A DNA stretch of 57,045 nt, taken from the NCBI GenBank assembly GCA_022572885.1, contig JACZVC010000018.1:8632-65676 (forward strand), given 5' to 3'. The translations under genes and the position numbers were made by a program. Each line of letters opens with the position of its first letter. The stretch's first letter is position 1. This DNA is from Pseudomonadota bacterium. GTDB taxonomy: Bacteria > Pseudomonadota > Gammaproteobacteria > Steroidobacterales > MnTg04. Positions 6,774-55,077 of this stretch are shown in pieces. The notes below the pieces were generated by a model. That model was not told the DNA's origin. It made no database searches and was given only the letters and a program-made list of their open reading frames with translations.

Positions 6774-9542
6774 ATGCGCCGGTATTTCATTCAACCAACA
6801 AAGTTTCTTACTTTAATCGTTGCAATCAGTTTCGTATTTGCGAACCAATCCCTGGCCCAAGGCACTTGGGAGACCAAGGCTCCGATGCCGACACCGCGGG
6901 GAGCGCACCCGGCGGTAGCTATTGGCGGAAAGATTTATGTAATCGGTGTTCACGACGAAGTTCCGGGCCTGGGATTCAATGTCGTATCGAACCTGATCGT
7001 CTACGATTCTGCGTTTGACAGCTGGTCACCGGGGACACCGCAATCGGCACACTTGGGAGGACATGGCGCCGCCATCATCGATGGCAAGATATATGTTGCC
7101 GGCGGATGCTTGGGGTCGCCACCCTTTGGCCCCGCCTGCAGTTTTGTGACCAATACGCTCGAGCGCTACGATCCGGCTTTGGATCCTTTGTTGGGTGCGC
7201 CAGCGGGTTCGAACCCTTGGACAACGCTTGCGCCCATGCCGGCATATCCAGGTTCGACCAATGGTAGAAGAGCGGGTCTGGCTGCCGTAGCAATCGATGG
7301 AAAGCTGTATGCGGTCGGAGGATTTTTTCAATGTAACATCTTCTGCCCGTCGAATAATGTTCTGCAACGCTACGATCCGGCTTTGGACGCCTGGACAACG
7401 CTCACAGACATGCCAACCTGTCGAGACGGTATGCATGCGGCGGCGATTGGCGGTAAGTTATACGTGGCAGGCGGTTTTCAGAGAACCGGTGGGTGTGGAT
7501 TCGGCGGCGGCGGTTTCTCGTCCAGCAAACTTGAAGTCTACGATCCGGCTTTGGATCCTCTCCTGGGAGCGCCCGCGGGTTCAATTCCTTGGACAACCTT
7601 GACCGATATGAGCGCTGCACGGACGGCATTGGGCGTTGGCGTGATCGACGGTTTGCTCTATGCCGTCGGCGGAAATGATGGTGTAGGTGCAAATCTGGAC
7701 CTATTGGAGGCGTACGATCGGGTAACGGATGTCTGGACGACCCAGACTCCGATACCGACGGCGCGCTCGCAACATGGCACTGCGGTCATCGGCAACCAAC
7801 TCTATGTCATGGGCGGTGCTAGTACCGTCCTATTGAGTTCGATGGAAGTGTTTACGCCAGATGCTTGTACCGCGCCACCTGCCAATATCATCAATTGGTG
7901 GCCGCTGGACGAAATATCACCCGGCAACGTGGCGGTCGATCTTGTCGGCGGTGCAGATGGCACGGTGATTGGCACCGTTAACGCGGTGGCCGGTAAAGTT
8001 GGTGGCGGATATGAATTTCCGGGTGGCCCGGTGCCATCACACGACGCTTCTGTCGACATCCCCGGTGGTGGCGGGCTCAATCGTGCCGATCTGGCAGAAG
8101 TGACGATCGAAGCCTGGATCAATCCAGACCTGGCCTCCTTGTTTAGTGACGAACGGGAGATTGTTCGGAAAAATTACACTTTGCCTTCCGGGGGCTCAGG
8201 TGCGTTTCTGCTGTCGTTCCAGATTGGCTTCTGCGCTTCGCCAGCACCGTGTCTCACTTTCTTCTTTCCCACCGCTTCCGGGAATCAGCAACTTAGTGTT
8301 CCGGTAAGCGGTATCGCCGACGACGGCGGGCCTTACAATTTCACCGATGGATTTCATCATGTTGCAGCGACCTACGATGGAATTGCCCAGAAAATTTATA
8401 TCGACGGGCGGTTAATTGACTCGAGGCTTGTTGCAGGCCCGATAATTCTGTCAACTTTGTCAACTGACCCTACGACTACCTTAACAATTGGCGCCTCGTG
8501 CACGCCGACCCTACCGAGCTCACGTTGTGAAGTATTCGATGGCATCATCGATGAGCTCAGTCTTTATGACCGCGCCCTGACGCAGATTGAGATTCAGGCG
8601 ATCGTGAGCGCCGGAAACGCGGGCAAGTGCACGGTTATCAATGAGCCCCCGACCGCCGAAGCCGGTGCCAATCAGTCGATCCACGCCGGTGATTCTGTGA
8701 TTCTGGATGGCAGCGGCTCATCCGACGACGTTACACCATCAGAGGATCTGCTGTATGCGTGGAGTTTCGACAGCGTACCAGCAGGCAGCAGCGCGACACT
8801 CAGCGGTGCGTCGACCATTGCGCCGAGTTTCACGACAGACCTGCCAGGTGACTATGTCGTCAGCCTGGTGGTGACCGATGAAGGCGGCCTCCCCAGCGTA
8901 CTGGACACTGTGACGATATCGTCCTTGAACGTGGCGCCGACCGCCGACGCCGGCATGGACCAGGGTAGCGTCGTAGGGTTCATGGTTACGCTGGATGGAT
9001 TCGGTAGTGACGATGCGGATCTCGATCCCATTACTTTTGCGTGGGCATTGACGGTCAGGCCAGCAGGCAGCGCCGCTTTTCTCACCGGGCCGGACACCGT
9101 TTCACCATCCTTTATACCGGACCTGCCAGGCACCTATGAAGCACAACTGGTCGTCAACGACGGCTTTGCAGATTCCGCACCGGACGAGGTAGCCGTCTTC
9201 GTCATAACGGTGGAAGCTGCTGTTGCTCAAATGAAAGCTGTGGACGCCATCAATATCATCGCCTTTTTGGCCCCGGACAAAATAACAACGAAGGGTAATC
9301 AGACGGCGCTTGGCAATCACCTGGCGCAGGTTATCGAGGCATTGCAAACGGGTGATACCGAGAAAGCTATCAAGAAACTCACCCAGGCCATCGAGCGAAC
9401 AGACGGATGTAAGTTGCGTGGTACGCCCGATCTGGGGAAAGGTCCAGGCCCGCAACCTAAGAAAGACTTTATCGCCGATTGTGCATCGCAAGCGCCTGTC
9501 TATACGCTATTGGCGGAAGCGTTGGCGACACTAACGCCGTAA
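6774..9542 (+). CDS. Secreted Kelch / LamG / PKD repeat protein under c-di-GMP riboswitch
   Basis: A 922-aa exported protein. It starts at the ATG at 6774 behind a clear AAAGGAG and opens with a signal peptide ending in SLAQ. Residues about 30-365 are Kelch repeats (recurring GGKIYVIGG-type blades and LERYDPALD motifs), probably a beta-propeller. Residues about 370-610 form a LamG-like lectin fold (NWWPLD...VTIEAWINPD...DELSLYDRAL). Two PKD/REJ-type domains follow (AEAGANQSI..., ADAGMDQGS...), then a helical C-terminal domain with two Cys. This layout suits a surface or matrix protein binding sugars or partners. The upstream c-di-GMP riboswitch fits a role in attachment or biofilm. The exact ligand is unknown. 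Confidence 0.82.
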   Translation: MRRYFIQPTKFLTLIVAISFVFANQSLAQGTWETKAPMPTPRGAHPAVAIGGKIYVIGVHDEVPGLGFNVVSNLIVYDSAFDSWSPGTPQSAHLGGHGAAIIDGKIYVAGGCLGSPPFGPACSFVTNTLERYDPALDPLLGAPAGSNPWTTLAPMPAYPGSTNGRRAGLAAVAIDGKLYAVGGFFQCNIFCPSNNVLQRYDPALDAWTTLTDMPTCRDGMHAAAIGGKLYVAGGFQRTGGCGFGGGGFSSSKLEVYDPALDPLLGAPAGSIPWTTLTDMSAARTALGVGVIDGLLYAVGGNDGVGANLDLLEAYDRVTDVWTTQTPIPTARSQHGTAVIGNQLYVMGGASTVLLSSMEVFTPDACTAPPANIINWWPLDEISPGNVAVDLVGGADGTVIGTVNAVAGKVGGGYEFPGGPVPSHDASVDIPGGGGLNRADLAEVTIEAWINPDLASLFSDEREIVRKNYTLPSGGSGAFLLSFQIGFCASPAPCLTFFFPTASGNQQLSVPVSGIADDGGPYNFTDGFHHVAATYDGIAQKIYIDGRLIDSRLVAGPIILSTLSTDPTTTLTIGASCTPTLPSSRCEVFDGIIDELSLYDRALTQIEIQAIVSAGNAGKCTVINEPPTAEAGANQSIHAGDSVILDGSGSSDDVTPSEDLLYAWSFDSVPAGSSATLSGASTIAPSFTTDLPGDYVVSLVVTDEGGLPSVLDTVTISSLNVAPTADAGMDQGSVVGFMVTLDGFGSDDADLDPITFAWALTVRPAGSAAFLTGPDTVSPSFIPDLPGTYEAQLVVNDGFADSAPDEVAVFVITVEAAVAQMKAVDAINIIAFLAPDKITTKGNQTALGNHLAQVIEALQTGDTEKAIKKLTQAIERTDGCKLRGTPDLGKGPGPQPKKDFIADCASQAPVYTLLAEALATLTP

Positions 9543-9570
9543 CCTGCGGGTAATCTGCAAAGGCAACGGA

Positions 9571-9601
9571 AACCTCGCCGAGTGGCGGGGTTTTCTTTTT
9601 T
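9571..9601 (+). terminator. Rho-independent terminator after the Kelch protein gene
   Basis: CCTCGCC and GGCGGGG form a short GC-rich stem with a GAGT loop (one internal mismatch), followed by TTTTCTTTTTT. It sits 30 bases after the stop codon. Confidence 0.8.
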
Positions 9602-9706
9602 GCGTTGCAGCAAATGTCGGCAATTTCGCATTTTTTGACCTGGAATTTCGCTATCATTGCCTTGACGCAACTGACATCGGCGGACCTGCAAGCCGCTGGT
9701 GAGAGG

Positions 9707-11119
9707 ATGGATCCTTTGCGAGTCGTGACCGCGCTACTGGTCGCCGTGGTCCTGGGTACCTGCTCGAGACCGCCGTCACTGGTGGAACAGATCAAGACGC
9801 TCGGTGAGCTGCGGGTCATCACCCGGAACAGCCCCACGACCTATTACATCGGACACGAAGGCCCGATCGGGCCTGAGTACGACCTGGTCAGCCGGTTCGC
9901 CGAGGAGCTGGGCGTCGAGCTCAGGATCGATGTCGATGAGGAACTGCGGACGCTGATACCGGGCGTGAAATCCGGTCGCGCCCATATCGCGGCCGCCGGC
10001 CTAACCATCACCGCGGACCGCCTCGTCGAGGTCGCCTTTGGCCCCTCTTACGATGACATTTCCGAATTCCTGGTTTATCGCGTCAATACGCGACGGCCCA
10101 GGGAACCCAAAGACCTGATCGGCAAAAGTATTGAGGTCATCAAGGGCAGTGCGCATGCCGACACCCTGCATCAATTGCGTCAGCGCTACCCCGACCTGGC
10201 CTGGATCGAAACGCCAAACGTCACCGGCGAAGAACTGATCTACCAGGTCGCGCAGGGCAAGATCGATTATACGATTGCGGATTCCAGCGAGTTCAATGTG
10301 TCGCAGAAATTCCATCCGGAAGTCCGGGTTGCGTTTCAGTTGAGAAAAAATCTGCCGCTGGCCTGGGCCATACCCAGAAATTCGCCGGCCTTGCACGATT
10401 CGGTGCAACAGTTCTTTGCCGGACTCAGGAAAAGCGGCGAGCTCGAGCGCATCCTGGAGAAATATTATGGCAATGTCGGAAATTTCGATTATGTCGGCAC
10501 GCGGGCGTTTCTGCGGCATATCGAAACCCGCCTGCCGCAGTTCAGGACCAGTTTCCAGCAAGCCGCGGCGGATTCCGGCATGGACTGGCGGTTGCTGGCG
10601 GCGGTTGGCTACCAGGAATCGCATTGGAACCCGAAAGCGGTGTCGCCGACCGGCGTGCGCGGCATCATGATGCTGACCCAACTGACCGCACGTCAGTTGG
10701 GCATCCAGAATCGGATCGATCCCGTGCAAAGCATCTCGGGTGGATCGCGGTATATCCGGGAGATGATGGGCAGGATTCCCGAGCGCATCCCCGAACCCGA
10801 CCGGACCTGGCTGGCGCTGGCGGCCTATAACGTCGGCTGGGGCCACGTGGAAGATGCCCGGATCATTACTGAAATTCGGGGACTGAACCCGGATAGCTGG
10901 GTCGATGTCAGGAGCAGCCTGCCATTGCTGACGCAGAAAAAATGGTATTCGCGGGTACGGCGAGGTTACGCGCGGGGCTGGGAGCCGGTCCATTACGTGG
11001 ACAATATTCGCAGCTATTACGATGTGCTGCTGTGGCTGTACTCGGACTCCAGCCCGTTCAGGGAGCGGCTGGACCTTGACGATGAAGAACAACAGCCCAA
11101 AAAACCGATTGAGGCCTGA
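9707..11119 (+). CDS. mltF: Membrane-bound lytic murein transglycosylase F
   Basis: A 470-aa lipoprotein with two domains. An extracellular-solute-binding (SBP_bac_3) domain covers roughly residues 35-265 (LRVITRNSPTTYYI...). An SLT lytic transglycosylase domain follows, with the catalytic Glu in AAVGYQESHWNP and downstream GVRGIMMLT and AYNVGWGH motifs. It cleaves peptidoglycan to 1,6-anhydromuropeptides. I place the start at 9707 (GAGAGG just upstream) because it yields a signal peptide with an LGTCS lipobox; an in-frame ATG 102 bases earlier would bury it. The 3' end overlaps the next gene by 38 bases. Confidence 0.92.
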   Translation: MDPLRVVTALLVAVVLGTCSRPPSLVEQIKTLGELRVITRNSPTTYYIGHEGPIGPEYDLVSRFAEELGVELRIDVDEELRTLIPGVKSGRAHIAAAGLTITADRLVEVAFGPSYDDISEFLVYRVNTRRPREPKDLIGKSIEVIKGSAHADTLHQLRQRYPDLAWIETPNVTGEELIYQVAQGKIDYTIADSSEFNVSQKFHPEVRVAFQLRKNLPLAWAIPRNSPALHDSVQQFFAGLRKSGELERILEKYYGNVGNFDYVGTRAFLRHIETRLPQFRTSFQQAAADSGMDWRLLAAVGYQESHWNPKAVSPTGVRGIMMLTQLTARQLGIQNRIDPVQSISGGSRYIREMMGRIPERIPEPDRTWLALAAYNVGWGHVEDARIITEIRGLNPDSWVDVRSSLPLLTQKKWYSRVRRGYARGWEPVHYVDNIRSYYDVLLWLYSDSSPFRERLDLDDEEQQPKKPIEA

Positions 11120-44424: not shown

Positions 44425-44509
44425 GCCGATGTGGTGGAATTGGTAGACACGCAGCACTCAAAATGCTGTGCCTTCGGGCGTGTCGGTTCGAGTCCGACCT
44501 TCGGCACCA
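44425..44509 (+). tRNA. tRNA-Leu (CAA anticodon)
   Basis: An 85-base class II tRNA with encoded CCA. The anticodon stem CAGCA/TGCTG holds the loop CTCAAAA, reading CAA. The long variable arm is GTGCCTTCGGGCGT. The T arm is GTCGG-TTCGAGT-CCGAC. The acceptor stem GCCGATG/CTTCGGC has one T-T mismatch at the sixth pair; in E. coli leuX this position is A-U. An accessory segment begins directly after it, consistent with use as an integration site. Confidence 0.96.
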
Positions 44510-44691
44510 TCTCATGAGACCCTTGATATATAAGGCTTCCAGCGATCAGAAAGACTCTAAAGTGTGATACTTAGTGTGACTCACTAGCGGCCTCTTTTGC
44601 GCTACTTGGAGTAAAGGGAGGCGGCACTGACGGGCAGAAGGAAGCCCTGCGACCACAGGTGCAGTAGACCCGCCAGCGCCACCATTGAGGG

Positions 44692-45111
44692 TTACGCGGT
44701 GCGGCGTTGTGCGTTGCCGCGTCGGTCGTACTCGACGCGCTCTTCGGGCGTCATACGCATTCTGTACCGAGCGTTTCGCTCTGCGTCAGTGAAGTTGAAC
44801 AGGGTCACTCCCTCGCGAGCGCGAGACTTGTTGCGCTTGTCGCAGGACTTACAGACTCCATGCCGCCCGTCTTTTGTCGAGGAATTGCGGTGGAACTCTG
44901 TGAGTGTCTTCACGATGTTGCAGACACCGCAGAACTTCTGGCCGGCCTCACGCAGCTTTGCGCAGACAGCCTGGGATTCGGCAGTGTGACCGCTGTGTGT
45001 CCGGAGCGTCTCAAAGTCTTCGTTTGAAAGTTCCATGGCTATGCTGCCAGCGAGGAATCCATCGGGGTCTTTGGGAACTCCGGAGGGAGTCATAGGTAGG
45101 TATTGAGGCAT
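44692..45111 (-). CDS. Zn-ribbon protein of the tRNA-Leu element
   Basis: A 139-aa protein with a paired CxxC zinc ribbon: FCGVCNIVKTLTEFHRN then VCKSCDKRNKSRARE. The layout C-x2-C, L-x-EF, CKSC is shared with the HNH nuclease gene 1.6 kb upstream, but no HNH residues are seen here. The C-terminus is basic. Such proteins are common in phages and may be DNA-binding or inactive nuclease relatives. It is the last gene of the element before the tRNA. Confidence 0.6.
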   Translation of the reverse strand: MPQYLPMTPSGVPKDPDGFLAGSIAMELSNEDFETLRTHSGHTAESQAVCAKLREAGQKFCGVCNIVKTLTEFHRNSSTKDGRHGVCKSCDKRNKSRAREGVTLFNFTDAERNARYRMRMTPEERVEYDRRGNAQRRTA

Positions 45112-45259: not shown

Positions 45260-46612
45260 CTACCTGTTAAGGAGGAGTCTTACGGCAGTGGAGTGAACGA
45301 AGGTAGTCTGACCAGTATGGGCATTAAACTTGTCCATCATGATCTGAGCCGCCTGCGTCTCTCGCCTGAAAGAGACCACAAGGCCGTCATGAACCTGTAG
45401 TGCTGTGATGTTGTGCTCGATACATTCGAGCAGTACGTCCACAATGATCTCTGATTCCATGAAATGGAAATAATGACCTAAGCCACGTTCCCATAGCGAA
45501 TCGAGTGCAGGATGGTGCGCTTTGATGGCAGATACGATCTCAGGAAGTGGAATGTCGCATCCCTTGAAGTTCTCCTCGCGAACACCTTTCGGCCACCTTA
45601 CGAGCGGCTTCCGAGCAAACATGAGTGCGCCAAAGATGCGCTTGACGCCAGTGCGCCATTGGCCCAAGCCTGGAATGTTGTAGGCATCGGGGCCGGTCAC
45701 TTCTTCGATAGACCCCCGTACCGGGAGTAATAGCCCCTGATTCGCATACGCCAGTGACGGCATCATGGATCGGAAGTCCACTTCGACCACTCCGCAACCG
45801 TCGATTGATATGTGCTTGCGCTGCTTGGCGCGCAGTCCGTTCAACCAGAAACCGCCGAAGAGTCGGCCACCCTCAGTAAACGATGCATTATTGAAGTAGC
45901 GACGCTGGCGACGGTTGGTGAGATCCACAAACTTGCCGCCGCTGTAATCTATATCAGCGTGTCGAAGATACGCATTGATCCGGCGCATTTCGTCGCGGTA
46001 ACCGTTCGATAGGTCGGTGTCGATGTAGTCGAGCCACTTCGCGCGGTTCTCGTGAGCGGCCTTAAGGTTATTCTGTGTCGGCTTTGCGCTCTTCAGTATG
46101 ACGATCTCTTCGTCGTCACTGAGCGTCATGTCTTCCGGCACAATCTTGTGGTCGTCAATCAGGTTAAGCAGACTCGGGCCAGCCTTGTAAGCGGTCTGTC
46201 GACCGGCGTAGTAGTCACCACGTTCGGCCAGTTCCGCGAATCCCATTTCGGGAGCCGTCAGTAGATCGAGAGCTTTGACTGTGGGCCGACCTTCGAAGGC
46301 CGCTTGATAGCGATTCTTTTGCTTGACCGTGGTGCGTCGACTCAAATGGATGCGCCCTGCGCCCTTCTCAGAGGTCACTGCGCGATGCATCAGGCCGCAC
46401 ACGAGAGCAGTGATAGCTGCCATCAGGTTATTGTGAGCGGATGTCCGACGAGAGCGCCGTCGGAGTCCCTTGAATAGTTCGTAGTTGCGTATCTGATTCA
46501 GTACGTTGTCCACGATGATCTGTGCGATGTTGTCGCCGACATCGTAGGGGATGCGATACGGACTGAAGCTCCGGTCGCGTTCGTCAATGTTGTGTGCGTT
46601 TATTTTCTTCAC
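45260..46612 (-). CDS. Divergent minimal family-A-like DNA polymerase
   Basis: A 450-aa protein that I read as a compact family-A polymerase core. RRYFNNASFTEGGRLFGGFW is at residues 237-256. Motif A is VEVDFRSMMPSLAYA with Asp279. A motif B-like WRTGVKRIFGALMFA has Arg320 and Lys324, echoing RRAAKAINFGLIYG of Pol I. Motif C is ALQVHDGLVVS with Asp409, matching QVHDE in Pol I. There is no room for exonuclease domains. The first 230 residues are basic and unrecognised. It probably replicates or repairs the element. Assignment rests on motif order and spacing, not on a search; similar short proteins occur in phages and integrative elements. Confidence 0.65.
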   Translation of the reverse strand: MKKINAHNIDERDRSFSPYRIPYDVGDNIAQIIVDNVLNQIRNYELFKGLRRRSRRTSAHNNLMAAITALVCGLMHRAVTSEKGAGRIHLSRRTTVKQKNRYQAAFEGRPTVKALDLLTAPEMGFAELAERGDYYAGRQTAYKAGPSLLNLIDDHKIVPEDMTLSDDEEIVILKSAKPTQNNLKAAHENRAKWLDYIDTDLSNGYRDEMRRINAYLRHADIDYSGGKFVDLTNRRQRRYFNNASFTEGGRLFGGFWLNGLRAKQRKHISIDGCGVVEVDFRSMMPSLAYANQGLLLPVRGSIEEVTGPDAYNIPGLGQWRTGVKRIFGALMFARKPLVRWPKGVREENFKGCDIPLPEIVSAIKAHHPALDSLWERGLGHYFHFMESEIIVDVLLECIEHNITALQVHDGLVVSFRRETQAAQIMMDKFNAHTGQTTFVHSTAVRLLLNR

Positions 46613-46734: not shown

Positions 46735-47196
46735 TTATTTCTTGTAGGTAACAAAGCTCACGCGGAGGAAGACCGGCTTCGGGGGAAGCCAGTCCGTCCG
46801 TGATCCTTTGGCGATGTTTTGGTCAGCACGTAGCGGTGTAAGGTTATCCGGACAGTGTTGGCCGCCGTTGAACAGGCTGACAATGTGATCGACATGGAAC
46901 TCAAGACCGGTCGCGTCGGTCAATGCCTCCGCAGTCACGTAGGCCGATTGAATGTCGGCGTAGGCCGGTGTTCCAGGCGCGCACCAATCAGGCGTCTGTC
47001 CGAGTCTTAGCGCTCGCTGTCGGGCATTCTTGGCGGAGACCTTCGACTTGTTGTCCCGCCGGTATCGTCGGTCATACTCGGACCGGCACGATTTACAATA
47101 AGCTCGTCGGCCATTGCGGCCATACTTGTACCTACCGAACTCTTCGAGCGGTTTGAGTTCCCGGCACTGCGAACAGCGCCGGGTTTCCTCAGACAT
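46735..47196 (-). CDS. Zn-ribbon HNH endonuclease
   Basis: A 152-aa protein from the ATG at 47196 (AGGA just upstream, 7 bases after the preceding stop). The N-terminus is a zinc ribbon (CSQCRELKPLEEF...YCKSC) and the C-terminus an HNH domain: HVDHIVSLFNGGQHCPDNL followed by LRADQNIAKGS. Phages use such nucleases for DNA nicking, packaging or homing. The ribbon resembles that of the Zn-ribbon gene near the tRNA, suggesting a common origin. Confidence 0.82.
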   Translation of the reverse strand: MSEETRRCSQCRELKPLEEFGRYKYGRNGRRAYCKSCRSEYDRRYRRDNKSKVSAKNARQRALRLGQTPDWCAPGTPAYADIQSAYVTAEALTDATGLEFHVDHIVSLFNGGQHCPDNLTPLRADQNIAKGSRTDWLPPKPVFLRVSFVTYKK

Positions 47197-47203
47197 ATCC
47201 TGC

Positions 47204-47614
47204 TTACTGCTTGGTGTACGTGCTGAAGTTGACCGGGTTAAAGCCTTCGCCGGTTTCATTCGCGAACAGCGCAAAGCTATCGATGGCTTCTTCTTGCGTG
47301 GGCTTATCCATATCGAAGACCGCCATAGCGATAATCGGATGGTGTTGGTCGTCGTACCGCGCCATCTTTACAATCACGTTGCGGCCTCTGCGTTTCGAGT
47401 GTAGCTCACCCATAAAGCAATTCTCAGTTGGCTGGTCGGCAAGGTCAGTCTGTTCGGTCACAATGTGAAATATGGCAAGTTCCTCGTCGGACACCGTGTT
47501 GAGCAGTTCGTAGCCCCTCGACTTATCGATGGGCGAATGCTCAAAGAAATGTCTCAGGATTTCGCCTATATCAATTGCTTTCGGCTGTGTGTCTTGCGGA
47601 TTTGCGTATGGCAT
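47204..47614 (-). CDS. Hypothetical protein of the tRNA-Leu element
   Basis: I do not recognise this 136-aa acidic protein. It starts at an ATG with AGGAG 7 bases upstream, so it is likely expressed. A core such as RNVIVKMARYDDQHHPIIAMAVFDMD suggests a small alpha/beta domain. It lies 7 bases upstream of the HNH nuclease gene and probably shares its transcript. Confidence 0.6.
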   Translation of the reverse strand: MPYANPQDTQPKAIDIGEILRHFFEHSPIDKSRGYELLNTVSDEELAIFHIVTEQTDLADQPTENCFMGELHSKRRGRNVIVKMARYDDQHHPIIAMAVFDMDKPTQEEAIDSFALFANETGEGFNPVNFSTYTKQ

Positions 47615-47747: not shown

Positions 47748-48329
47748 TTATGCAGCGTTTCGCCGCACGAATCTGGCGTACTGTGGAAGTACGGCATCGA
47801 TGCCTTCACGCTGAATGCGTACATTGATTACTTCGCCGGCAGTCTTCGCATCGGCGGCCAAGCCGCGGAGCCGCAGGTTGCGTTGCTCCAATAGAACAGC
47901 CGTGGTGTAGTTCGATTCGTACACGTCACGCTCTTGCTAGTTCACCTTGATCGCGGGATCAGGGATGTTCGCTATGGTGCTTGCCAGTGCCTCTTCCGGC
48001 AGTCCGTTCGCACCTAAGCCGATCTGAAAATCCATCGACCTGTGCATCGAGTCGATTGGCTGTTGCAGATTGTCCGGTACGGAGTGTCCAGCGGGCGTAA
48101 GGCGGGTGACTTTAGCTTTCCAATACCTTCAGCCCATCAGCCATACGTGAGACGTCGACTCATGCCGGCAGAAACCTTGGTTGGATTCTTGGAAATCACC
48201 GACCCGTAGAGCGGCATCGACCTCTTGCGGCGTCAGGTCTGCGAGAGCCTTGGCCGGACCGGCGGTGGGCTTGATCTCGCCATTATGGGGAATCACAAGG
48301 GACTTGTTGCTGTCAGTCAGTAGGTATTC
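47748..48329 (-). pseudogene. Broken gene with in-frame stops (unknown element protein)
   Basis: A single reading frame of 194 codons remains protein-like from end to end. It runs EYLLTDSNKSLVIPHNGEI...DLTPQEVDAALRVGDF..., crosses a TGA at 48129-48131, continues RYWKAKVTRLTPAGHS...LPEEALASTIANIPDP, crosses a TAG at 47937-47939, and ends ...IQREGIDAVLPQYARFVRRNAA with TAA. A further TAG (48330-48332) precedes it. No frame shift is needed, and each stop can be made from a sense codon by one transition. I do not recognise the protein. The start is lost or lies in the adjoining repeat. Decay is the simplest reading; recoding is an alternative. Confidence 0.55.
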
Positions 48330-48341
48330 CTACCGCTTGAG

Positions 48342-48490
48342 TTCGGTAGTTAGCTTCGTGGGGACGTAGTAGAGGGTATTTGGGCTTTGTAAACGTTGGC
48401 GAAAACGCCTGCAGCCTCTGTGGCTATTTAGATACAGCCGAATCGTAGGGTGGACACTCCTAGATCGCCAATTTGACTCTCTCAGGAGCC
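48342..48490. repeat. 150-bp direct repeat, copy 1
   Basis: It begins TTCGGTAGTTAGCTTCGTGG and ends CTCAGGAGCC. It matches copy 2 over its full length with many substitutions, sharing GTTAGCTTCGTGGGG, GGGTATTTG, GGCGAAAACG, GAATCG..GGGTGGACA and AATTTGAC. It includes an imperfect hairpin. It borders the 5' side of the broken gene. Confidence 0.8.
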
Positions 48491-48539
48491 TTCGGTACCG
48501 GGTAAGATTCCTCGGATTCTGGTGAATTTACCCGTGAAT

Positions 48540-48690
48540 TTCGGTTGTTAGCTTCGTGGGGGGGCCGTAACGGGTATTTGACGTTTGTAAACACGGGCGA
48601 AAACGTCTGTAGCGCTCATGACTATTGAGCTACAGACGAATCGTTGGGTGGACATATCGAGAGGTCACAAATTTGACCTTTTGAGGAGCC
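48540..48690. repeat. 150-bp direct repeat, copy 2, with perfect hairpin
   Basis: Second copy, 49 bases after copy 1. It contains a perfect 10-bp inverted repeat, CGTCTGTAGC (48605-48614) and GCTACAGACG (48630-48639). The hairpin is not followed by a T run, so it is not a typical terminator. It ends just downstream of the coiled-coil gene's stop. Confidence 0.8.
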
Positions 48691-48703: not shown

Positions 48704-49933
48704 TCAGACTACTTTCAGACCCTCAAAAAGCCTCGTGACTACCGCCTCAGCGTCCTGAACCAGTTTCTCGGCGTCCTGAACCTGTTCCTCGGCAACCGGG
48801 AGTTGACGCACATTCCTCAAGCGCAACATTTCGCCTGTCCCTTTGGGGTCGGCTCGTGCAGTCGCCAGTCGTCCACGCGCGTTGGCAAGATGTCCACGGG
48901 CCGTGCTGTCTAACTGCAGCGCTTCCTCGTGGGCGTCGTCTTCTAACTCCGTACGATCTGGAAATCTACGCTTAGCCGCTGCGAGGTCGTTTTTGGTTTT
49001 CGCGAGCCATTGTTCCACCTTGTGGCATCCACTCTCCTCATTTCGTACCCACTCCCGGAGGTAGTCCATATGTCCATCAAGGCATCTCTGCGGATCATCG
49101 AGAGCCGCCTTAACAGTCTCAAGCTGGCGAAGGCTATCTGCGAGTGATCGCTGAGCCGCTTCGAGTCTTGGAGGAGCGGTGACGCGGTCGGTACGCTCCT
49201 GCGTCTCCCGATACTTCGCTGCCCACTCTTCAGTCAGTAATGGCAACCGCTCTGTGCGCTCCCCTTCCATATCCGTGTGATAGAGGATGGGCGAATAGCC
49301 ATATTCTTTTGCGGCATCTTGTTCAAGTAAAACGTCGAACAACGCATTCGGATTGTCAAAGTCGTTCCGGGGCAGTTCTGGGTGCTTCTCGCAGAGGGTA
49401 TCGAACTCGGCTCGCAGTGTTTTGATCTCTTCTTTAGCGTCGGCATCCAGTTGGATACTGAACGTATTGTCAGGTAGCCGCACCGTACATTGTTTCTTTA
49501 CTGCCTCTATCTTGGCCCATATTCGTTGTTGAGACAGCTCATGAAACACCTTCTCCATCAAGATGGCGTGATCCTCGAATCTCTTCACGTACTCCCTACG
49601 ACGTCGCTGTATACGTTTCTTGCGGGCCTGTATCTCTAATTCGGTTAAGCCCCGGGATTCTATTTCCTTTGTCCGCGTGTATTCATTACGCTCTACTCCG
49701 CGTTTCTCCTCGGCGGTTCTGAGATCAATGTGATCGGTGTCTCTAAGTTTCATCTCGAATTGTTTGATTCGCTCCTCGAGTGCCAGAATCGTGTTCGACG
49801 TTACGGCGCAACCGCCCGCGAGTTTTTCTTCCCGCGCAGCTATAAGTTCTTCCCGACGCTTTGCCCACCGTTTGCGGTCGGCACGCAGGCGGTACACGGC
49901 GGTCGCATCGGCGGCTTTCTTGTCCGTCGTCAT
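48704..49933 (-). CDS. Coiled-coil hypothetical protein
   Basis: I do not recognise this 409-aa protein. From the ATG at 49933 it is extremely rich in Glu, Arg, Lys, Ala and Gln, with long heptad-like stretches (REELIAAREEKLAGG, LTELEIQARKKRIQRRRREYVKRFE, AQRSLADSLRQLETVKAAL), suggesting an extended coiled coil. I chose MTTDKKAADATAV as start because the 81 upstream codons look non-coding in composition and cover a repeat-like intergenic motif. A structural or DNA-organising role in the element is possible, but unsupported beyond composition. Confidence 0.55.
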   Translation of the reverse strand: MTTDKKAADATAVYRLRADRKRWAKRREELIAAREEKLAGGCAVTSNTILALEERIKQFEMKLRDTDHIDLRTAEEKRGVERNEYTRTKEIESRGLTELEIQARKKRIQRRRREYVKRFEDHAILMEKVFHELSQQRIWAKIEAVKKQCTVRLPDNTFSIQLDADAKEEIKTLRAEFDTLCEKHPELPRNDFDNPNALFDVLLEQDAAKEYGYSPILYHTDMEGERTERLPLLTEEWAAKYRETQERTDRVTAPPRLEAAQRSLADSLRQLETVKAALDDPQRCLDGHMDYLREWVRNEESGCHKVEQWLAKTKNDLAAAKRRFPDRTELEDDAHEEALQLDSTARGHLANARGRLATARADPKGTGEMLRLRNVRQLPVAEEQVQDAEKLVQDAEAVVTRLFEGLKVV

Positions 49934-50120
49934 ATTGATTCCATTGTTTTCGTTAAGTAGCGTGGCCAGCAGTCCGGGACCTTTATTATCGTAGCCACTT
50001 AACCTATTGATATACAGACTATTCGAAGTTGGAATGTAATCAATACTGGAAGTTCTGCCTTCATGATGGATATGGCGGACATTGCGAACGGCGGTCACGC
50101 TGCCGCAAATAGTAAAAGCA

Positions 50121-50201
50121 AAACGTCTGCTTTCGACCCAAAGCGAACATTCAGCCCAGTAGCTGCAAATGGCCAAAAGCGGCCATTGCGTCGCTGATCA
50201 A
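50121..50201. repeat. Intergenic GTCCGCTTT/AAAGCGGAC repeat, member 1
   Basis: It contains AAACGTCTGCTTTCGACCC, AAAGCGAACATTCAG and GGCCAAAAGCGGCCATTGC and ends in GATCAATTA. The same pieces recur in three other gaps to the right. It lies upstream of the coiled-coil gene. Confidence 0.65.
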
Positions 50202-52270: not shown

Positions 52271-52428
52271 TTTTTCTCTCCTTTGCTTGAAAAGAAGGCT
52301 GCGCTTTTTGGCTTGACATCCAATCAAAGTATAGGACGTATAAAAGCCCTATTCCATGAAGCCCACGTTTATTGAACGGCCATTTGTCTCGCTTTTGGCC
52401 CTTATCGCTGCGAAAACTGGTTTGCTCG

Positions 52429-52515
52429 AACGTCCGCTTATGGCCGAAAGCGGACCTTCAGAATCACCTATTTCTGGTCATTTTAACGTCCGCTTTCGGG
52501 AAAAGCAGACATTCA
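52429..52515. repeat. Intergenic GTCCGCTTT/AAAGCGGAC repeat, member 2 (two units)
   Basis: Two units lie side by side: AACGTCCGCTTATGGCCGAA followed by AGCGGACCTTCAG (52429-52461), and AACGTCCGCTTTCGGGAAAA followed by GCAGACATTCA (52485-52515). Each is an imperfect palindrome. They fill much of the 400-base gap between the hydrolase and ald; the remainder shows no gene. Confidence 0.7.
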
Positions 52516-53890: not shown

Positions 53891-53895
53891 CCGGC

Positions 53896-53937
53896 GAACG
53901 TCCGCTCTTGGCTGCGATTTCAACCGGTCGACGCAAC
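53896..53937. repeat. Intergenic GTCCGCTTT/AAAGCGGAC repeat, member 3
   Basis: It carries GAACGTCCGCTCTTGGC and then GCGATTTCAACCGGTCGA. The second piece recurs in inverted orientation in member 4. Confidence 0.65.
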
Positions 53938-53973
53938 ACTTTAGCTAAAACGCAGAAGATGGCGTGTTGCCCC

Positions 53974-55077
53974 TCAATATGACAAATCGCAGTGAGCAAC
54001 TTCACCGCTGCCGTCGAACTGCACGACCCGAAAAAAGCGACCGTGGGCCACAAACGCTGCCATATCCACCAGCAGCGGTTCCAGCCAGTACATGTCGCGA
54101 CCCGAGTTCTCGTATGGCGTCAGCATCTCATGTGGTACGTCGGCCGGCATGTAACAGAGTGAGATCGGCCCGAAATCGACTTGTGCCGATGCGTAGTCAG
54201 CGATCCGGTCATTGCTGATGTATTTTTCGTCGCCGGCCGTAACGACCTGGATCGGGTTCGACAGCGGTTGCCTCGCGTATAGCTGGCGGTTGATTTGCAC
54301 GAGGTCGATCAGCGCGACGACGTGCTTGTATCGATAATCGCAGAATCCCGCTCGGCCGGCTGCCTGCCAGGAGTGACATTTCGCACGTAAGCCCCGCGGT
54401 TTTACGATCATCTTGTTGAATCCCGGTGTCCGGCCGAGCGCCTCCGCCAAGGTCTCAATGAAGGCGCCGCCGCGAATCCCGAGCATCGGCGCGAGCAACA
54501 ATAGCCGGTTGTACAGCTCGGTCGCCTGCAGCGCGGCGCTCAAGCTGATGGCGCCGCCAAGCGAAAAGCCAACAATAATCTTCTCGCCCGGGCTCGCAGC
54601 CATGATGCGATTCATCGACGTCGCAAACTCGAAATAGCCGGAACTGTCTTCGCCGGCTGACGGCAGGGCTGACAGGTCGTCTTCGCCGCCCGCGGTCGGC
54701 ATGGCGCCGTGGCCGGGGAGCAGCGGCAGCAGCACGTCGAAACCCTGCGCGCTGATCCGCGGGGCCAGCTCCAGGAACTGCTGCGGGCAGGTACCGAAAC
54801 CGTGGAACATGATGACGGCGCCGCGACGCTTCGTACCTGGCACTGCGGTGAAGCGCCTTGGTTCGCAGTCGGCCGCGTGCGGCGTTTCGTTTACGCGGTT
54901 TTCGTAGTCCGACCATGCCGCGGCGAAGGTGGCCAGTTCCTCCTGCTCGGCGGGCGGCGCTACGACGCTGAATGCCGCGGTTGTGCAGCCCGCCAGCAAG
55001 CATCCGGCGAGCGCGCACAGCAGGACCCGTCCGAGGATGGCGCATGGCCGCAGTACCATGAACTCTCGTCTGTGCAT
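53974..55077 (-). CDS. Alpha/beta hydrolase lipoprotein
   Basis: A 367-aa protein with a signal sequence and lipobox (ALAGCLLAGCTT). The fold is an alpha/beta hydrolase of the carboxylesterase/lysophospholipase type: VIMFHGFGTCPQQF for the oxyanion region, the nucleophile Ser in VGFSLGGAISLS, and DVPHEM near the end as the probable His. GGGAAG lies before the ATG at 55077. The substrate is not evident. It is tail-to-tail with ald. Confidence 0.82.
   Translation of the reverse strand: MHRREFMVLRPCAILGRVLLCALAGCLLAGCTTAAFSVVAPPAEQEELATFAAAWSDYENRVNETPHAADCEPRRFTAVPGTKRRGAVIMFHGFGTCPQQFLELAPRISAQGFDVLLPLLPGHGAMPTAGGEDDLSALPSAGEDSSGYFEFATSMNRIMAASPGEKIIVGFSLGGAISLSAALQATELYNRLLLLAPMLGIRGGAFIETLAEALGRTPGFNKMIVKPRGLRAKCHSWQAAGRAGFCDYRYKHVVALIDLVQINRQLYARQPLSNPIQVVTAGDEKYISNDRIADYASAQVDFGPISLCYMPADVPHEMLTPYENSGRDMYWLEPLLVDMAAFVAHGRFFRVVQFDGSGEVAHCDLSY

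Follow-up and report, generated by a model that had tools for sequence, protein, structure and literature searches.

An interrupted reading frame on the minus strand

The window (the whole stretch of DNA analysed, 57,045 nt) contains a reading frame broken by stop codons, which most probably (about 0.7 in our estimate) is what is left of a protein gene without known relatives, carried on an element at a tRNA-Leu gene, whose function two nonsense changes within the frame have abolished. The frame is read on the minus strand, from codon 1 at 48344 down to a TAA at 47748-47750:

47748..48344, minus strand: interrupted reading frame, probably a decayed orphan gene (codon scoring, shuffles and window control)
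48330..48332, minus strand: TAG where the repeat gives way to coding signal, probably before the start codon (codon score, and repeat end at 48331)
48129..48131, minus strand: internal in-frame TGA (translation of the frame)
47937..47939, minus strand: internal in-frame TAG (translation of the frame)
47748..47750, minus strand: TAA, natural terminator of the frame (translation of the frame)

A sequence-only reading of this DNA had described a protein-like frame interrupted by three stops, without naming a strand. The frame exists and its location was correct, the strand being minus; two of the three in-frame stops, TGA 48129-48131 and TAG 47937-47939, are clearly internal, but the first TAG lies at the edge. 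A plus-strand reading of 47748-48345 was rejected: it has four stops, and its codon score is weaker. Single-sequence structure prediction of the interrupted frame gave a mean pLDDT of 32.

Coding signal of the frame

The low stop count is by itself nothing unusual: as few stops or fewer were found in that frame in 289 of 2000 dinucleotide shuffles, and in some of the six frames in 1533 of 2000 (77%). Codon usage was scored with a host model, trained on the host genes of the window, and with an element model, trained on five intact element genes, which is weak because two of these five score poorly when left out. The interrupted frame was the top of the six frames under both models; its host-codon score was reached by none of 2000 dinucleotide shuffles and its element-codon score by two of 2000 (0.001). 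A control drew on the window's other 597-nt stretches containing 3-5 stops: with exclusion of those that lie in frame with an open run longer than 120 codons, one of 1615 equalled the frame on both models, and in a first control that kept them, 49 of 3642 (again with 3-5 stops) reached its score on both. GC by codon position in the interrupted frame (0.63/0.42/0.64) resembled that of the intact neighbours. Coding-like codon usage was present in all three segments of the frame and absent from the sequence upstream. Codon usage supports the interrupted frame as a coding relic, and the two internal stops are premature stops with coding-like usage on either side, as in a pseudogene.

The pattern could also have arisen from two or three short genes that share one frame, or from non-coding DNA that is coding-like by chance, a reading to which the unremarkable number of stops, the presence of GTG-start ORFs only 55 and 58 aa long, the lack of a homologue and a coding signal that is flat around the TGA all lend something. 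We regard it as unlikely, since a single frame holds the signal on either side of each internal stop and just that one stretch among the 1615 comparable ones does as well.

The flat region extends over ~48180-48075, where other frames score slightly higher. Dips as deep were found in intact element genes in 435 of 1117 windows, mostly from two genes, and a path decoded across the three minus-strand frames kept to one frame unless indels were made cheap. Compensating frameshifts around the TGA were rejected, as they were used only with cheap indels and similar dips occur in intact genes. The earlier statement that the frame contains no frameshift is borne out to the extent that a one-frame path is preferred, with room left for a short compensated indel; the absence of small compensating indels is plausible.

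Start of the gene and two upstream repeats

Upstream of the broken gene lie two 126-nt direct repeats that have diverged from each other and stand 198 nt apart:

48331..48456, minus strand: 126-nt direct repeat, first copy, immediately before the broken gene; 76% identity with copy 2
48529..48654, minus strand: 126-nt direct repeat copy 2, 76% identical to copy 1

The first TAG (48330-48332) overlaps the end of copy 1. The cumulative codon score drops through the repeats, reaches its minimum at ~48335 and climbs from there, and because it turns at that point the first TAG was placed at the edge of the gene and not inside it. The turn of the score, the overlap with the repeat and the scoring of the repeat stretch as non-coding under the codon models together point to a probable position of this TAG ahead of the start codon, where it would not be a lesion. 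Most likely, the coding part begins between 48329 and 48296: no in-frame ATG was found between 48329 and 48290, and a GTG at 48296 opens a 55-codon ORF.

Differences between the repeats fell on codon positions 3, 1 and 2 in 14, 9 and 7 cases, respectively, which is a weak bias. A 19-base core shared by both copies was found nowhere else in the window; it had an exact match in one viral contig, without similarity around it, which is probably due to chance. No promoter- or terminator-like site was detected in the repeats by consensus, and their RNA fold was not notable (z -0.7 and -1.7). The repeats are perhaps regulatory.

Searches for homologues

The protein of the interrupted frame (P0001) had no homologue in viral contigs, genome contigs, phage records or plasmid records. 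In 59 relatives, 396 genomes of the order and 369 genomes of the class (own genome included in each), the sole match was the own genome. These collection scans were built on short peptide patterns and their reach is limited to close relatives; within that reach, no intact homologue spanning both stops was present among the collections scanned. Pfam, PHROGs and NCBIfam gave nothing below E 0.1 for the frame. A synteny check of 13 loci of neighbour-gene relatives gave no match to it at E<=1, and six of those loci, compared earlier under lenient settings, gave matches only at E>=0.03, which were taken as noise. Scans of viral contigs with the neighbouring element proteins produced no useful relatives. 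As no homologue was found, intact or broken, the full-length ancestral gene is proposed from codon statistics.

The frame is represented by a single sequence copy in a draft genome (66 contigs, 96% complete), and its lesions are substitutions, with no indel detected. The stops might accordingly be errors or minority variants in the draft consensus, the gene being intact in the organism. We consider this improbable: two independent nonsense errors within 200 bases would be unexpected in a reasonably covered contig, and the genes on both sides of the broken frame are intact. The stops are presumed to be real in the organism.

The surrounding element and its insertion at tRNA-Leu

The following features flank the broken frame:

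44425..44509, plus strand: tRNA-Leu(CAA), where the element is inserted; the other junction, on contig C22, has a copy of its 3' end (44490-44513)
44692..45111, minus strand: endonuclease VII-like protein (phrog_1035, E 3e-10)
45260..46612, minus strand: polymerase-like protein, intact, ending in TAG (phrog_4756)
46735..47274, minus strand: endonuclease VII-like HNH protein (phrog_1035, E 6e-29)
47204..47614, minus strand: 136-aa protein without family match
48704..50176, minus strand: 490-aa charged element protein, intact, ending in TGA (ORF reading)

Two genomes of the same genus share with the window the region of the sigma factor gene and the tRNA (91% and 84%); they lack the insert, and the tRNA is directly followed by another, unrelated gene. 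A counterpart of that gene (94% identical) was found on contig C22 of the own genome. There it follows 24 nt that repeat the tRNA end (window 44490-44513, repeated at C22:25617-25640) and, next to these, a gene for a tyrosine integrase (C22:24181-25527; Phage_integrase in Pfam, E 5e-19). The broken frame is part of a phage-like integrative element whose insertion point is the 3' end of tRNA-Leu and which shows the duplicated end and the integrase of a tRNA-integrated element, its junctions being on two contigs; the window ends with its contig, and the inserted DNA between the junctions is not contiguous in the assembly. All other element genes examined were intact, none with signs of decay, a point against the reading of the frame as a decayed gene. 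Window stretches ~52422-52515 and 53895-53992 are dispersed repeats, with many further copies in the own genome and in relatives.

The motifs of the polymerase-like protein (45260-46612) resemble, as we take it, those of family A polymerases; it had no Pfam match. Nine loci with phrog_4756 polymerase-like relatives were compared (L046, L047, L048, L049, L050, L051, L063, L064 and L065; three weaker matches were left out), and in eight of them a tRNA gene was present within the 10.7-19.9 kb fetched. Two loci also contain a serine or tyrosine recombinase. These relatives may represent one family of elements that integrate at tRNA genes and bring a replication protein of their own. One of the loci, L049 (G000:C3, ~8714-9739), lies in the own genome and contains another, diverged copy of the polymerase-like gene, near a tRNA-Gly.

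Recoding and readthrough

Stop-codon recoding had been put forward as one source of the interrupted frame, with the observation, set against it, that the polymerase gene of the same segment ends in TAG. That observation was borne out: in two other genomes, proteins homologous to the polymerase-like one (38% and 35% identical) stop no more than a few columns away from its own end. The 490-aa gene ends in TGA, and none of the other listed intact element genes contains an in-frame TAG or TGA. In the own genome there were 48 tRNA hits, 47 of which were named by ARAGORN, the window tRNA among them; none of these 47 has a CTA or TCA anticodon, and the alignment of the 48th, a weak hit, read by eye, shows no such anticodon loop. 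The genome being 96% complete, a suppressor tRNA may have been missed. A search around six related loci likewise revealed no CTA/TCA tRNA nearby. A tRNA at G000:C3:105573-105655 (L112) combines a long variable arm with a Pro (tgg) anticodon according to ARAGORN, an unusual combination.

None of the marks of a stop-recoded phage (a stop unused as terminator, many genes with in-frame stops, a suppressor tRNA) was found. It is very improbable that recoding or programmed readthrough carries translation past the stops to yield the full protein. The frame has no detected indel, and bacterial in-frame stops under purifying selection are reported in a published survey (PMC7918605), but both stop codons terminate genes of the same element, the neighbours are uninterrupted, the tRNA set contains no amber or opal suppressor, and with two different stops to pass in one gene, losses would be multiplied; on the first three of these grounds recoding and readthrough were rejected. 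Still harder to credit is a gene kept as a conditionally read frame, its stops passed only in some state of host or element and its full protein rare and controlled.

Discussion

Among the origins considered beforehand for the interrupted frame, inactivation fits best, in the form of nonsense changes, given two internal stops with coding-like codon usage around them. The frame was presumably once one intact gene. This ancestral gene would have comprised ~180-190 codons and have been carried by the phage-like integrative element at tRNA-Leu. The nonsense changes would be, in frame order, a TGA and then a TAG; translation would halt after ~55-65 codons, and the remainder would no longer be made as one protein. 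Decay would have followed loss of selection on the element. According to the same survey (PMC7918605), in-frame stops are over-represented in genes of mobile elements.

As in the bacterial pseudogenes of mobile or acquired DNA surveyed in PMC522871, there is here an interrupted coding-like frame in an acquired element, but with no intact relative by which to define it by comparison. Phages in which TAG encodes glutamine (genetic code 15; PMC9523058) share an in-frame TAG in a protein-like frame; in this element, in contrast, TAG is also a terminator, TGA occurs too, there is no suppressor tRNA and other genes are without in-frame TAG. The broken gene is most probably an ordinary gene relic, with no sign of stops being used as amino acids.

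The polymerase-like protein of this element has motifs that we take to be family A-like, unlike the family B of pipolins. With pipolins (PMC7385651), the element (and not the broken gene) shares an integrated state and a polymerase-like gene, but theirs is of family B and the one reported here matches phrog_4756 and not family B.

The value of the broken gene is mainly one of annotation, in that one candidate for stop-codon recoding is removed. The surrounding integrated element, with its polymerase-like and endonuclease VII-like proteins, is a more interesting object than the broken gene itself.
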